From positions 1 to 21,586 of the IMG/VR virus record IMGVR_UViG_3300044628_000466: DNA of 21,586 nucleotides; one strand, 5' to 3'. The notes under the pieces were generated by a model that saw nothing but the letters and a program-made list of their open reading frames with translations, made no database searches and was not told the origin of the DNA. The first letter of the stretch is position 1, and every line of letters begins with the position of its first letter. A program made the position numbers and the translations under genes. Source of the DNA: a virus. Shown here piece after piece: positions 1,942 to 20,274 of the stretch.

Positions 1942-3828
1942 TTATCCGTATTGTTGTTGCCACATTTCAGTGGCTGCCTCATCTAAGTTTATAGATGTGC
2001 GTTTATGCTGTTGCGCTCTTGTGGCCCAACGGTTTGATGCGTATCTAGATATGTTACTGTTCTGTTGCATAAACTCACGGGCACGGATAACCGCAAACCA
2101 TAAAGCCATAACAGTATCTGTCTTACCTCTGGTATCAGGCTTCCAAGTAATTAACTGTTGCACTAACGCCTTCATACCTTCTGAGTTTTCAGTACTAGGT
2201 AATTCTATAATGTTGTTCTTTTGGAACTTACCTTCGCGAGTAGTGCCAAAGAGCGTTGACATTGATGCCACACCGAAGTTTGTGTCCCATTTGTTCTTGC
2301 CTGTAAAGTGAGAATTAAGCCGTACGCCGTGTGAAGAGAGCCATGTTCGTAGTTCTTCATCAAGGGAGTAGGCTTTTTGGTGGGCGTTGATTTCAACGCG
2401 GAACTCTTGCGGTCTGTACCGAAGCGTAAAATCTTCAATGGCTTGCCTAATCTTTTGTGGCGTAGGGTCTGGCATGTTCAAACATTCTAGAACATAAATC
2501 TTTCCATCGGTCCTGTTATAGGTGATAGCCACAAATGCAGCGTTACCCGCCATAGCGGGGTCAAAGCCAACAATAGTGTAACCCTCAACCTGAGGTGGAT
2601 GTCCCGTTGCACCTGGCTTTAATGGACCACGCTTTCGCATACCATTGATAGAACCTTGCACCAGTTCAGGTGGAAAGATGGAGTCTTCAGTTACATCTTC
2701 TTGTTGATAAACAAGTGCCCATGTTGCTGGGGTTACTTCGCTTCTACGCTTGAAAAGCGTTTCGCCATCCCACTTAGGGTATAACCCTTCTTCATCAGGT
2801 GGGGTATCTTCATCCCCGTCCCAGGGTGTATCACTTGCAGGCCAGAGGGTTGTCCAGTCTTCTGGCTTATCGCTATAGTCAAGAACTGCTGGCATACCCA
2901 TGTATGTAAAAGGTGACTTGCCACCAGACCAATGCTTAGGGTCGCGGAGTTCTTTATAAAAATCAGATGGGGCGATACGGGTTCCTACCACCAGTAACTT
3001 ACCGTTCTTGCCCAGACGGGTAATAACTTCCTTTTGCAGCCAGTTAATCTGCTTCTCATGCTCGTGAGCGTTAGAGGTAGTTATACAGTCATCTAGGATA
3101 ATCAGGTCGGCACGTGCGCCGTAAATCTGCCCACCCATACCCAGTGCCTGAATCGTTGGGTCTTTTTCACTTGAGTTTCTCGCATCACTCCCAAGGTAGA
3201 CCGTGTCAACTCGCCAAGTATCTGAGTCCTCTTTCCAGCCCCCTTCTGGTCCAAAAGTTGTTTGCAACTTTAGCCAGCGCGGGTGGGATAATCTCTGCTT
3301 GATTGCGTACACGAACTCGCGTGCTTTAACAAGGGTCTTCGAGACCACAATAATGCGGACGTTCGGATTGAGAGCGATGCGATAAGTTGCGTAGTTAACC
3401 GTAATGACGGTTGATTTGGCGTGCTCAGGGGGAACGTTTAGAAGTAGGCGGTTCCGATTGCCTGGCTCGTAAATCATATTGGGGTGCAGCCACGAAGGCT
3501 CGCGTCCCTCTAACAGGTCAATCCAATCCATATGATGTGGAAAAACCCGCTGGTCCAAAAACATCTCAGAGAACTGAGGAAAAGTAATATCTTCACGGGC
3601 TACGCCCATGGCTTTTAATGAACGCTCTTTAGCGTTTTCCTTTGCCTCGACAAGGGCGGTAGCAAAGGCTGGGTCTCTTAAACACCAGATACGAACAGTG
3701 TCTGGCTTTTTGCCATTTTGTTCCATAGCCCTATGTACCGACATACCTTCAGATACCAGTGCCAAAACTTTGGCTTTAGCCTCTGCTGCCATAGCGGTAC
3801 GGGGGTTATTAGTCTTTTGAAAAGTCAC
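1942..3828 (-). CDS. terL: terminase large subunit with N-terminal HTH-like extension
   Basis: A 628-aa packaging motor: ATPase plus nuclease that cuts concatemers and pumps DNA through the portal. Visible motifs are a variant Walker A at ~131-140 (NVPPEHAKST), Walker B at ~242-247 (LIILDD), a coupling-type VGTR at 281-284, and an RuvC/RNase H-like nuclease with candidate acids D423 (GFDPAMAG), E479 (RVEINAHQ) and D571 (KTDTVMALWFA). Residues ~14-67 precede the motor and look like a helix-turn-helix (KVLALVSEGMSVHRAM, then DTVRIWCLRDPAFA) of the kind seen in small terminase subunits. No separate small subunit lies next to it. The start is a GTG at 3828 with a weak GGGA site; an ATG at codon 13 is an alternative. 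It is the first gene of the leftward late unit in this window. Confidence 0.93.
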   Translation of the reverse strand: MTFQKTNNPRTAMAAEAKAKVLALVSEGMSVHRAMEQNGKKPDTVRIWCLRDPAFATALVEAKENAKERSLKAMGVAREDITFPQFSEMFLDQRVFPHHMDWIDLLEGREPSWLHPNMIYEPGNRNRLLLNVPPEHAKSTVITVNYATYRIALNPNVRIIVVSKTLVKAREFVYAIKQRLSHPRWLKLQTTFGPEGGWKEDSDTWRVDTVYLGSDARNSSEKDPTIQALGMGGQIYGARADLIILDDCITTSNAHEHEKQINWLQKEVITRLGKNGKLLVVGTRIAPSDFYKELRDPKHWSGGKSPFTYMGMPAVLDYSDKPEDWTTLWPASDTPWDGDEDTPPDEEGLYPKWDGETLFKRRSEVTPATWALVYQQEDVTEDSIFPPELVQGSINGMRKRGPLKPGATGHPPQVEGYTIVGFDPAMAGNAAFVAITYNRTDGKIYVLECLNMPDPTPQKIRQAIEDFTLRYRPQEFRVEINAHQKAYSLDEELRTWLSSHGVRLNSHFTGKNKWDTNFGVASMSTLFGTTREGKFQKNNIIELPSTENSEGMKALVQQLITWKPDTRGKTDTVMALWFAVIRAREFMQQNSNISRYASNRWATRAQQHKRTSINLDEAATEMWQQQYG

Positions 3829-4200
3829 GTAACTGTCCCATCTGCATATAGTACAGACCAGTTAGTAACGGATAGTAGATACAGTCTGTAACGCAAGTTC
3901 CTGAAGAACTTGCTTAGGTAGTAAAAGAAATAGTCTCTATATAGTATTAACCCGTTCAAACAGCCATTCCGAACGGTCCAAAGGCAAAAATCTTTTTACT
4001 TAATTAAAACAATTAAGTAACAGCCTAAACAGGGCATAGGGGACTGTACGGGAAAATCTTTATGGGAGATACAGTATATCTTACAGCCGTAGTTTAATCA
4101 CTCTAGGGTCAGAAACAGACTACAGGTAGACAGATACAGGTTGACCTGTACTGTACAGGCTGAGTGTAGACAGAGACTAGTCTGCGGCTCGATAGACAGG
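3829..4200. promoter_or_regulatory. divergence region, AT-rich left half with inverted and direct repeats
   Basis: No gene is seen here. The segment separates the leftward terminase from the rightward early genes, so it should hold divergent promoters. Visible structure: a perfect 8-bp stem at 3893-3900/3906-3913, a 6-bp stem at 3952-3957/3971-3976, a perfect 10-bp AT-rich stem at 3996-4005/4011-4020 (loop 5), a palindrome at 4174-4183, and a cluster of TACAGG and TAGACAG repeats at 4121-4200. A TATATA box on the minus strand (3943-3938) is a weak leftward -10 candidate. TTGACC at 4141-4146 is a weak rightward -35 candidate. Neither has a convincing partner. An origin of replication here is possible but unproven. 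Confidence 0.5.
4121..4200. repeat. cluster of short direct and inverted repeats (TACAGG / TAGACAG)
   Basis: TACAGG occurs at 4121-4126, 4135-4140 and 4154-4159, with its reverse complement CCTGTA at 4145-4150. This makes overlapping dyads: 4135-4141 with 4144-4150, and 4145-4150 with 4154-4159. TAGACAG occurs at 4127-4133, 4167-4173 and 4193-4199. A 10-base palindrome (AGACTAGTCT) lies at 4174-4183. Such crowding is typical of repressor operators or initiator-binding sites, and the location between divergent transcription units supports that. Which protein binds is unknown. Confidence 0.6.
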
Positions 4201-4700
4201 ACTACCTCGCCCCTGTTTTATTAAACTGAAATAGTTACAGCCCTGGCGATGGCTGGCAAACCCTCACCTCTGCTACCGTAGCCAAGGGTCGCACCGAAGG
4301 CTGTCCGCCCGCGCAAGCGCGGTCTCGCCTGTCGCAATCGAAGGCATAGCCTTATGGTCTATTGCCTTCTCATGCTGACATGCACTCAGCCCTCATCTCT
4401 CGCCAGTCTGTCGGCGCGTCCAAGGCCGCGCTACGCCATCCTCAGGCTCGTGCTCCTGCGGTGCCTTCATCATACTCCGTCGTCAAATCGTTCCCTGCTC
4501 TGCCTATTCAGCAGAGCAAAGCGGTCACGATTGCTCTCAGCGTGGTAAACCACGCTTCTGGCCTGTCTGAAGCGCCCACAAGTGTGCGCCTGCTCGCAGG
4601 CTCGCAGTCCAGCCATGCCCCGCATCCAGCGCAATTGCGCTGTCTGAATGACTTAGGAGTATTTCTTGCGGCGTTTCCACAACGGGTGGAGACGGAAAAG
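4201..4700. ncRNA. hairpin-dense GC-rich non-coding region, candidate large structured RNA
   Basis: About 500 bases without a convincing gene. G+C is about 61% over 4261-4620 by hand count, against about 32% at 3901-3960. Stems: 4213-4216/4237-4240, 4260-4264/4285-4289 enclosing 4272-4275/4279-4282, 4309-4314/4317-4322 (CCGCGC/GCGCGG), 4340-4349/4359-4369 (10 bp with one bulge), 4496-4503/4511-4518 (8 bp, loop 7), 4539-4546/4549-4556 (8 bp), nested stems at 4572-4589, 4588-4593/4596-4601 and the perfect palindrome 4627-4642. Most follow each other without overlap, as in a multi-helix RNA. The strand is uncertain because stems read on both. An open frame crosses it, but its translation looks random and lacks a ribosome site. 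Alternatives are a replication origin or foreign GC-rich DNA. Confidence 0.45.
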
Positions 4701-4712
4701 AAAGGAACGACA

Positions 4713-4868
4713 ATGCACACAATAAGAAACATAGTGCTACAAGACACACAATGCCAATGGTGTGGCGACTATGCGGTTATCGAGTGCACAACATGTGACC
4801 ACATGGAATGTGACACATGCGGTGCAGGCGGATACTGCGACTGTATAGGAGGACAAACAAATGAGTGA
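4713..4868 (+). CDS. zinc-ribbon microprotein (51 aa)
   Basis: A 51-aa Cys-rich protein beginning MHTIRNIVLQ. Cysteines at residues 14/17, 25/28, 33/36 and 42/44 form three CxxC knuckles and one CxC, enough for two zinc sites. The start at 4713 is preferred over upstream in-frame ATGs because AAAGGAACGACA precedes it at proper ribosome-site spacing and the upstream frame lies in the hairpin-rich non-coding region. It is the first recognisable gene of the rightward unit and overlaps the next gene by 8 bases. The binding partner (nucleic acid or protein) cannot be told. Confidence 0.72.
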   Translation: MHTIRNIVLQDTQCQWCGDYAVIECTTCDHMECDTCGAGGYCDCIGGQTNE

Positions 4869-5250
4869 CGAACTAACTATCTCCAACCCATGCTACCAGT
4901 GCATGATTCAGATGGAACTATGTGTGGACTGCCAAGACCTACGCGACTCACGGGCGACTAACATCGCCCATGAGATAGTAGATGAGGCAAACCTCATCTA
5001 CCCTGCACAATGGCACAGTGTAACTGAGCCATCAGGACATGATTGGGTTAGCCCTACTACACGCGTAGAACCGTACTTCGTATACGCTACCCAAACCTGG
5101 GAAGATACCCGTGACGAGTTCCTAGAACCTATCACCAACCTATCCGATAGGTTTTTTGAACTGGTTGTGGACTTAGGTCCACATGAGATGGTCTGTCAAG
5201 ACTGTCGAATGGTATGCAACAAGCACGCTGTATGTCCAAGTTGTAACTAA
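4861..5250 (+). CDS. hypothetical protein with zinc-binding Cys clusters at both ends
   Basis: 129 aa, start ATG with a strong GGAGG site (4850-4854). Cysteine pairs at residues 11/14 and 21/24 make one N-terminal zinc knuckle pair. A second cluster closes the protein (CQDCRMVCNKHAVCPSC, about residues 112-128). The middle (~30-105) is acidic with several aromatic residues and no recognised fold. It overlaps the upstream zinc microprotein gene and is followed by a 12-bp hairpin. The two-ended arrangement may fold as one zinc ribbon with a long insertion. No family recognised. Confidence 0.75.
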   Translation: MSDELTISNPCYQCMIQMELCVDCQDLRDSRATNIAHEIVDEANLIYPAQWHSVTEPSGHDWVSPTTRVEPYFVYATQTWEDTRDEFLEPITNLSDRFFELVVDLGPHEMVCQDCRMVCNKHAVCPSCN

Positions 5251-19470: not shown

Positions 19471-20274
19471 CTATAGTAGATTAACTAAGGAGCGTGTTCG
19501 CCCCTGTGATAACTGTGTGTAAATCTGTGTTGTAGCCACACTTGTGTGGCGCATAAGTTCTTTAACAGCAATCAAATCTCCGCCTGATTTCTCAAGCATC
19601 GTCGTTGCAAAGTAATGTCTAAGGCTGTGGAAATGCTTAGCGTCTGGTCCAAGGATGCGACGCATCTCATTGGCTGCTCTACTAGATAACTTATTAGGCG
19701 TTACCTGCCATAGTCTGCCAAGAGTTCCGTATGACCTAACCATATCTGAGACTATTGGAGATACTGGAACTATTAAGTCTGTCCCACCTTTGCCCTGTAC
19801 TCGTAGAGAGTACCCATCCTCGTGCTCTATTAGGTCTGAGCCTTTGATGTTGGCTACTTCCATAGCACGAAGTCCTGCTGTGCCACCCAAGATAAACCAG
19901 TTGCGTAGCGTTGGGTTCTTAGCCTCAGCCAGCAGTTTCTGATACTCACCCTTGGTTACAGGCTTAGGCACACCACGCCCTGGCTTGACCTGTGGCAGTT
20001 GTTCAGCAGGGTTGTTACCATCTACCAACCCCATCTTATTCAGGGACTTGTAGATGCTTCTAAGCCTTGCTACATAAGTAGCCTTGGTAGACTGTTTGGT
20101 AGCCTGGAGTATCACCCGCTCTAGGTCCTCGTAAGTAGCCAGAGCAGGGTGAACACCCAGCCGTCTAATAATCTGCATATCCTGCTTAAACAATTGCTCA
20201 GAGAACCCTGAGGTTCTATATCTGTTATGTAGTTGGTCTGCTATCTGTTCCATAGGTATGATTTCCATACCCAT
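19471..20274 (-). CDS. int: tyrosine recombinase / phage integrase
   Basis: 267 aa with a full catalytic set: R136 (TAGLRAMEV), K162 (GKGGTDLIVPV), H216 and R219 (HSLRH), H243 (RHTSVATTQ) and Y252 (IYTQ). The N-terminal ~105 residues are the SAM-like DNA-binding domain. It would integrate the phage at an attachment site or, given its position between tail fibre and glycosyltransferase genes, act on other DNA. Orientation is leftward with the late genes, unlike the usual early location. Several start codons are possible (20274 or the internal ATGs two and seven codons on). No attP was recognised nearby. Confidence 0.9.
   Translation of the reverse strand: MGMEIIPMEQIADQLHNRYRTSGFSEQLFKQDMQIIRRLGVHPALATYEDLERVILQATKQSTKATYVARLRSIYKSLNKMGLVDGNNPAEQLPQVKPGRGVPKPVTKGEYQKLLAEAKNPTLRNWFILGGTAGLRAMEVANIKGSDLIEHEDGYSLRVQGKGGTDLIVPVSPIVSDMVRSYGTLGRLWQVTPNKLSSRAANEMRRILGPDAKHFHSLRHYFATTMLEKSGGDLIAVKELMRHTSVATTQIYTQLSQGRTRSLVNLL

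Follow-up and report, generated by a model that had tools for sequence, protein, structure and literature searches.

A structured, hypervariable region between the terminase and early genes of a freshwater phage family, with a predicted early-operon leader

What does a phage keep in 884 bases that hold no credible gene? The question arises in the window, a 21.6-kb IMG/VR virus record from lake water, which we analysed over its whole stretch of 21,586 nucleotides. A gap at 3829-4712 separates the minus-strand gene of the terminase large subunit (terL) from a rightward block of early-type genes, whose products include a DnaB-like helicase, a primase, an exonuclease, a sigma-like factor and a WhiB regulator. 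The genes bordering the gap are as follows.

1942-3828, minus strand: terL (PHROG 38, E 6e-66), heading the leftward (late) block
4713-4868, plus strand: first early gene of the window, 51 aa, without a Pfam match
4861-5250, plus strand: second gene in the window, commonly the first early gene among relatives

The gap and its genomic setting

Relatives were fetched by a terminase search of IMG/VR, which returned at least 404 to 599 matches per scan, the best 80 being used each time. The closest isolates are the Planktophila phages LanE43AprE7 and F5 (OX376640, OX376641), with 62% terminase identity; their hosts belong to the freshwater order Ca. Nanopelagicales, and both phages possess whiB as well as a sigma factor (PMC10202952). 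Searching GTDB genomes revealed no terL relative, so that no host genome or prophage was reached by that route, and blastn of INPHARED with the gap as query gave no match. Going by the nearest isolates, the phage is probably of a lytic type and belongs to a family that would infect Ca. Nanopelagicales; the gap is best explained as its divergent control region. The contigs of two relatives, L162 (79,356 bases) and L203 (76,622 bases), are about twice as long as the family's 39-kb genome and are possibly tandem double-genome assemblies.

Long plus-strand open frames in the GC-rich part of the gap were the reason to consider a protein-coding gene overlooked by annotation; they reach 168 aa, and one of them, 4362-4868, has tblastn matches in close relatives. 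Compared with relatives, the best open frame has its substitutions spread evenly over the codon positions (235/295/230), in contrast to the neighbouring gene 4861-5250 (239/148/645). Additionally, the indels of the gap are mostly not multiples of three and break the frame, and none of its open frames has a PHROG match. This candidate was rejected, and we regard an overlooked gene as scarcely conceivable. The original prediction that the 884 bases lack a credible gene therefore stands, with no codon signal in the gap and no protein conserved in one frame across relatives. Known RNA families were likewise absent: neither the window nor any of 13 related loci had an Rfam match at the gathering score, and on the gap at E values up to 5 only weak, unrelated matches appeared. 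No tRNA was found in the window or in three ~39-kb genomes.

A folded gap with a covarying core

The GC content of the gap is 40.9% over 3829-4200, 58.2% over 4201-4700 and 61.4% over 4261-4620, the last value agreeing with the figure of about 61% that had been claimed for a GC-rich right half. All six hairpins named at the outset (4309-4322, 4340-4369, 4496-4518, 4540-4555, 4588-4601 and 4627-4642) are present; their single stems are short, and a repeat tool at default settings listed no inverted repeats. Compared with dinucleotide shuffles, the whole gap folds with a z of -5.1 (20 shuffles), the right half with -4.4 and -4.3 on the plus and minus strands, and the left half with -3.1. The leaders of 34 diverse relatives reach mean values of -5.7 and -6.1 (plus and minus), compared with approximately -3.4 and -1.6 in five coding controls, with only 14 shuffles behind each of these values. 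Perfect stems of at least 8 bp occur 8.1 times per kb in the leaders; early genes have 3.5 and shuffled leaders 2.5. The right half is laid out as follows.

4236-4470, plus strand: 5' GC-rich domain, varying among relatives, with hairpins 4309-4322 and 4340-4369
4471-4662, plus strand: structured core; covariance model R1 matches 4481-4652
4472-4478 with 4656-4662, plus strand: closing helix P1, with base GTCA (4482-4485) paired to TGAC (4649-4652)
4486-4532, plus strand: P2, pairing 4486-4490 with 4528-4532 and, in its inner helix, 4496-4503 with 4511-4518
4540-4555, plus strand: P3 hairpin GCGTGGTAAACCACGC
4560-4619, plus strand: P4, pairing 4560-4569 with 4610-4619; an optional extension holds 4572-4589 and 4588-4601
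4627-4642, plus strand: P5 hairpin CAGCGCAATTGCGCTG, with two-sided changes among relatives in 7 of 7 pairs
4673-4693, plus strand: 3' pentaloop hairpin GTTTCCAC-AACGG-GTGGAGAC, just 5' of the Shine-Dalgarno site
4701-4706, plus strand: Shine-Dalgarno site AAAGGA

As an IMG/VR query, the P3 hairpin GCGTGGTAAACCACGC found 39 stretches, about 33 of which were the core element. Because MAFFT at first misaligned those cores whose P2 is short, the covariance model was built from the well-aligned forms and extended by covariance search, the outer arms of P1 falling outside it. In each genome the model finds exactly one strong match (E 1e-13 to 1e-56), solely at this locus. The core was found in 35 distinct sequences, each time lying between terL and the first early gene, and the order is conserved, with terL and/or early-operon homologues flanking the core, in all 18 non-window loci checked. 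These cores share an architecture in which P1, with its GTCA/TGAC base, encloses P2, P3, an extendable P4 and P5; the most constant bases are the joining strands, and the minimal form (L178) spans about 100 nt.

Among the 35 distinct cores, pairing is kept in 97.9% of 1292 pair cells; two-sided changes affect 24 of the 41 pairs and amount to 116 cells. Since the alignment was fitted to the structure, these counts lean toward it, and the controls nevertheless remain far off: none of 500 shuffles matched any of the core's covariation values, and sliding the structure lowered the paired cells to 27-41%. P1 is complementary in 25 distinct versions, which have the GTCA/TGAC-type base in common while their outer arms are completely replaced. 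This pattern shows that the core structure is under selection, and the covarying base pairs looked for among homologues are present.

The early gene start and the question of strand

The pentaloop hairpin ties the region to the gene behind it. Specifically, a stem of at least 5 bp ending no more than 15 nt before the Shine-Dalgarno site precedes 52 of 87 first genes, compared with 63 among 302 starts elsewhere, a threefold difference in frequency (p 2.6e-11); most of the loops at first genes, 35 of 52, are pentaloops. The leader thus keeps a fixed position just before the ribosome-binding site of the first gene, as a cis-acting leader does. The right half holds a selected structure, fixed in place and linked to the first-gene start, that encodes no protein and matches no known RNA family.

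We propose, with a probability of roughly 0.6, that the right half provides the early operon with a structured 5' leader on the plus strand, one that is new and hypervariable. It would make up the untranslated 5' part of the early mRNA that runs rightward; there P1, with its constant GUCA/UGAC base, would close a multi-hairpin domain holding P2-P5 and fold this large domain away from the start codon, while the pentaloop hairpin would keep the Shine-Dalgarno site open at a constant distance. Such a fold could act as a nuclease-resistant, ribosome-positioning leader that sets the lifetime of the early mRNA and the translation of the first gene, and frequent exchange of domains might alter its specificity. 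Both the plus-strand transcription and this mode of action, through stability and translation, are inferred.

The base changes themselves speak for a different possibility. Only 2 of 1265 standard pairs in the core are G-U (0.16%), versus 8.6% in an RNase P control of 35 sequences taken from a pattern search and treated with RNAalifold, and one-sided to two-sided changes stand at 2:116 in the core versus 97:433 in the control. One Watson-Crick pair is replaced by another almost without G-U steps, the folding excess of the 34 diverse leaders is equal on both strands, G-T is not in excess over A-C among stem mismatches, and in P1 the A-C mismatches exceed G-T 10 to 1. A swapped hairpin arrives already paired, so recombination could account for part of the scarcity of one-sided changes and G-U pairs; wholesale exchange does not explain why G-U is missing within the hairpins. 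Since G-U is nearly absent and both strands fold equally, structure at the DNA level remains a serious rival, which we rate as possible and tentative: the hairpins would form in DNA that is single-stranded or supercoiled, and would belong to a replication origin or a terL-adjacent packaging site. Perfect stems extending through the left module agree with it, as does the genomic position, the gap being the sole divergence point of the two gene blocks in the three ~39-kb genomes and the place where GC and AT skew switch sign. However, skew also tracks gene direction, so the switch is no proof of an origin; a hairpin at a fixed place before the Shine-Dalgarno site of an early gene speaks against the DNA level, as do loops that are A-rich on one strand alone. 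In stems of at least 7 bp, plus-strand hairpin loops contain 39% A versus 23% T, and A-rich hairpin loops are usual for RNA.

Other strand signals are mixed. Folding of the core together with the start site gives a z of -4.1 on the plus strand versus -3.3 on the minus strand, and special tetraloops gave no strand call, gCUUGc on the minus strand being found in coding controls too. In the left module and in four out of five leader groups, RNAalifold energies are lower on the minus strand, which base composition may cause. These energies would suit a separate, large ornate-type non-coding RNA acting in trans from either strand (on the minus strand, a leader of the late block), and so would the size and hairpin density of the region and its conserved junctions with variable helices. 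We consider such an RNA unlikely, given the lack of an Rfam match, the tight link to the early start codon and an extreme turnover between near-identical phages, unlike the conserved cores of GOLLD and ROOL.

The left part of the gap is organized separately, with the following features.

3829-4112, no strand assigned: left module, delimited by blastn and alignment over relatives, adjoining the terminase start
3893-3913, no strand assigned: hairpin H1, GCAAGTTC-CTGAA-GAACTTGC
3952-3976, no strand assigned: hairpin H3, CCGTTC ... GAACGG
3996-4020, no strand assigned: AT-rich hairpin TTACTTAATT ... AATTAAGTAA
4093-4110, no strand assigned: conserved element TTTAATCACTCTAGGGTC, the 5' arm of a palindrome in many relatives

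The terL-proximal 280-430 nt are kept in nearly all relatives, and the H1 arms change together, with more than 20 distinct, fully complementary versions. In many relatives the conserved element belongs to a near-perfect palindrome, TTAAACAGTCTGGGGTCA..TGACCC..AGACTGTTTAA; the TTAAACAGTCTGGGGTCA element lies ~270-330 nt upstream of terL in L199, L213, L251 and L255, is still recognisable in phage E7 and is degenerate in F5. The left module is expected to carry promoters or a packaging site, as a prediction. No promoter-like site was found on the plus strand, and promoter and terminator scans were not above chance.

Turnover among relatives and comparison with known systems

Beyond the left module, the leader up to the first early gene is highly variable and ranges from 150 to 800 nt, being unalignable even between phages whose terminases are 98-99% identical. 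In about half of the relatives the leader contains a GC-rich domain, which comes in several mosaic types, and the others have a short hairpin in its place. Some leaders consist of only a short P1 hairpin and the pentaloop hairpin, while others insert a large GC-rich multi-branch domain. Weak second matches to the core (E 3e-4 to 2e-3) lie in the 5' domain of four relatives (L148:491-590, L162:8143-8242, L172:3674-3773 and L153:5591-5690), which suggests a duplication of the core in them.

One guess at the cause of the fast domain turnover is that variety itself is favoured, for instance against host nucleases or as a means of telling co-infecting phages apart. A related and somewhat doubtful reading takes the region as a fast-changing specificity region, in which architecture and junction bases would stay fixed while helices are replaced wholesale without G-U intermediates; selection would then act on pairing in both strands or, alternatively, in single-stranded DNA. 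If true, this would be a hypervariable structural element without a described counterpart, which possibly sets early-gene control or exclusion among co-infecting phages.

Exchange of first genes together with their leaders at a cassette recombination site resembling integron attC was also weighed. Like attC, the element keeps its structure while its sequence varies: a conserved stem base bears a terminal part that is variable, and many copies have an unpaired base inside P1; one relative has the order leader-ORF-leader-ORF, and a tyrosine recombinase gene is present at 19471-20274. However, the attC R core sites (GTTRRRY / RYYYAAC) are absent from the 25 P1 bases, all of which are of GTCA/TGAC type, the first gene stays constant while the leader changes, and a large branched domain with constant junctions, standing before genes beside a Shine-Dalgarno site, is unlike attC. 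We therefore hold such a recombination site to be very improbable. The recombinase gene itself lies on the minus strand in the late block, in a phage family without terL relatives in GTDB genomes. On the early side of L043 / L131 (IMGVR 3300043448_000339), two consecutive genes each follow an identical short leader composed of a P1-type hairpin, an AGATA-loop hairpin and a Shine-Dalgarno site; the first of the two genes is optional cargo, and its MKVYK..-type start recurs in other relatives.

Large ornate phage RNAs had been put forward for this gap. GOLLD and ROOL usually lie near a tRNA island, form a multimeric RNA cage and are expressed at lysis. GOLLD is phage-encoded, hundreds of nucleotides long, found in freshwater and rich in hairpins, with one conserved and one variable part (PMC12286853), all of which the gap element shares; with ROOL it shares a phage origin, large size and multi-branch form. 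The absence of any Rfam family match means that the element is neither of them: covariance models gave no credible match in the window, the gap or the 13 related loci, and no tRNA island adjoins it. Unlike GOLLD, it precedes the early operon, has a core of less than 200 nt and undergoes near-total turnover between close relatives; unlike ROOL, it has another architecture. The original reading thus holds for a conserved, covarying structure without a protein and fails for GOLLD and ROOL, and among the identities it offered a new class fits best, with covariation, no protein and no Rfam family. By function the element is best filed as a putative structured phage early leader, not as a GOLLD or ROOL member, and it represents a real family of structured elements that is apparently undescribed, going by the open PMC papers searched.

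The put-type antitermination leaders of HK022 are about 70 nt long, with two hairpins and a near-constant sequence. The gap element resembles them as a predicted structured leader RNA opening a phage early operon, a likeness of structure and position; it differs in being 100-600 nt long, modular and hypervariable.

Ca. Nanopelagicales rank with the most abundant bacteria of fresh water. The isolation of their first phages dates only from 2023 (PMC10202952), and a hypervariable structured control element in a large family of such phages would offer a new handle on early infection. Strong covariation with nearly absent G-U also makes the element a test case for distinguishing RNA structure from DNA structure using only the sequence. 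The leaders of E7 and F5 likewise lie between terL and the early genes, and that of E7 has an upstream TTAAAC..TCTGGGGTCA element as in the window, the F5 copy being degenerate; their downstream sequence differs, and model R1 finds no match in it. Both isolates (L182, L183) share a non-coding stretch of ~170 nt with hairpins, ~560-750 nt upstream of terL, at the same locus as in the window and with a sequence unlike the window's core.
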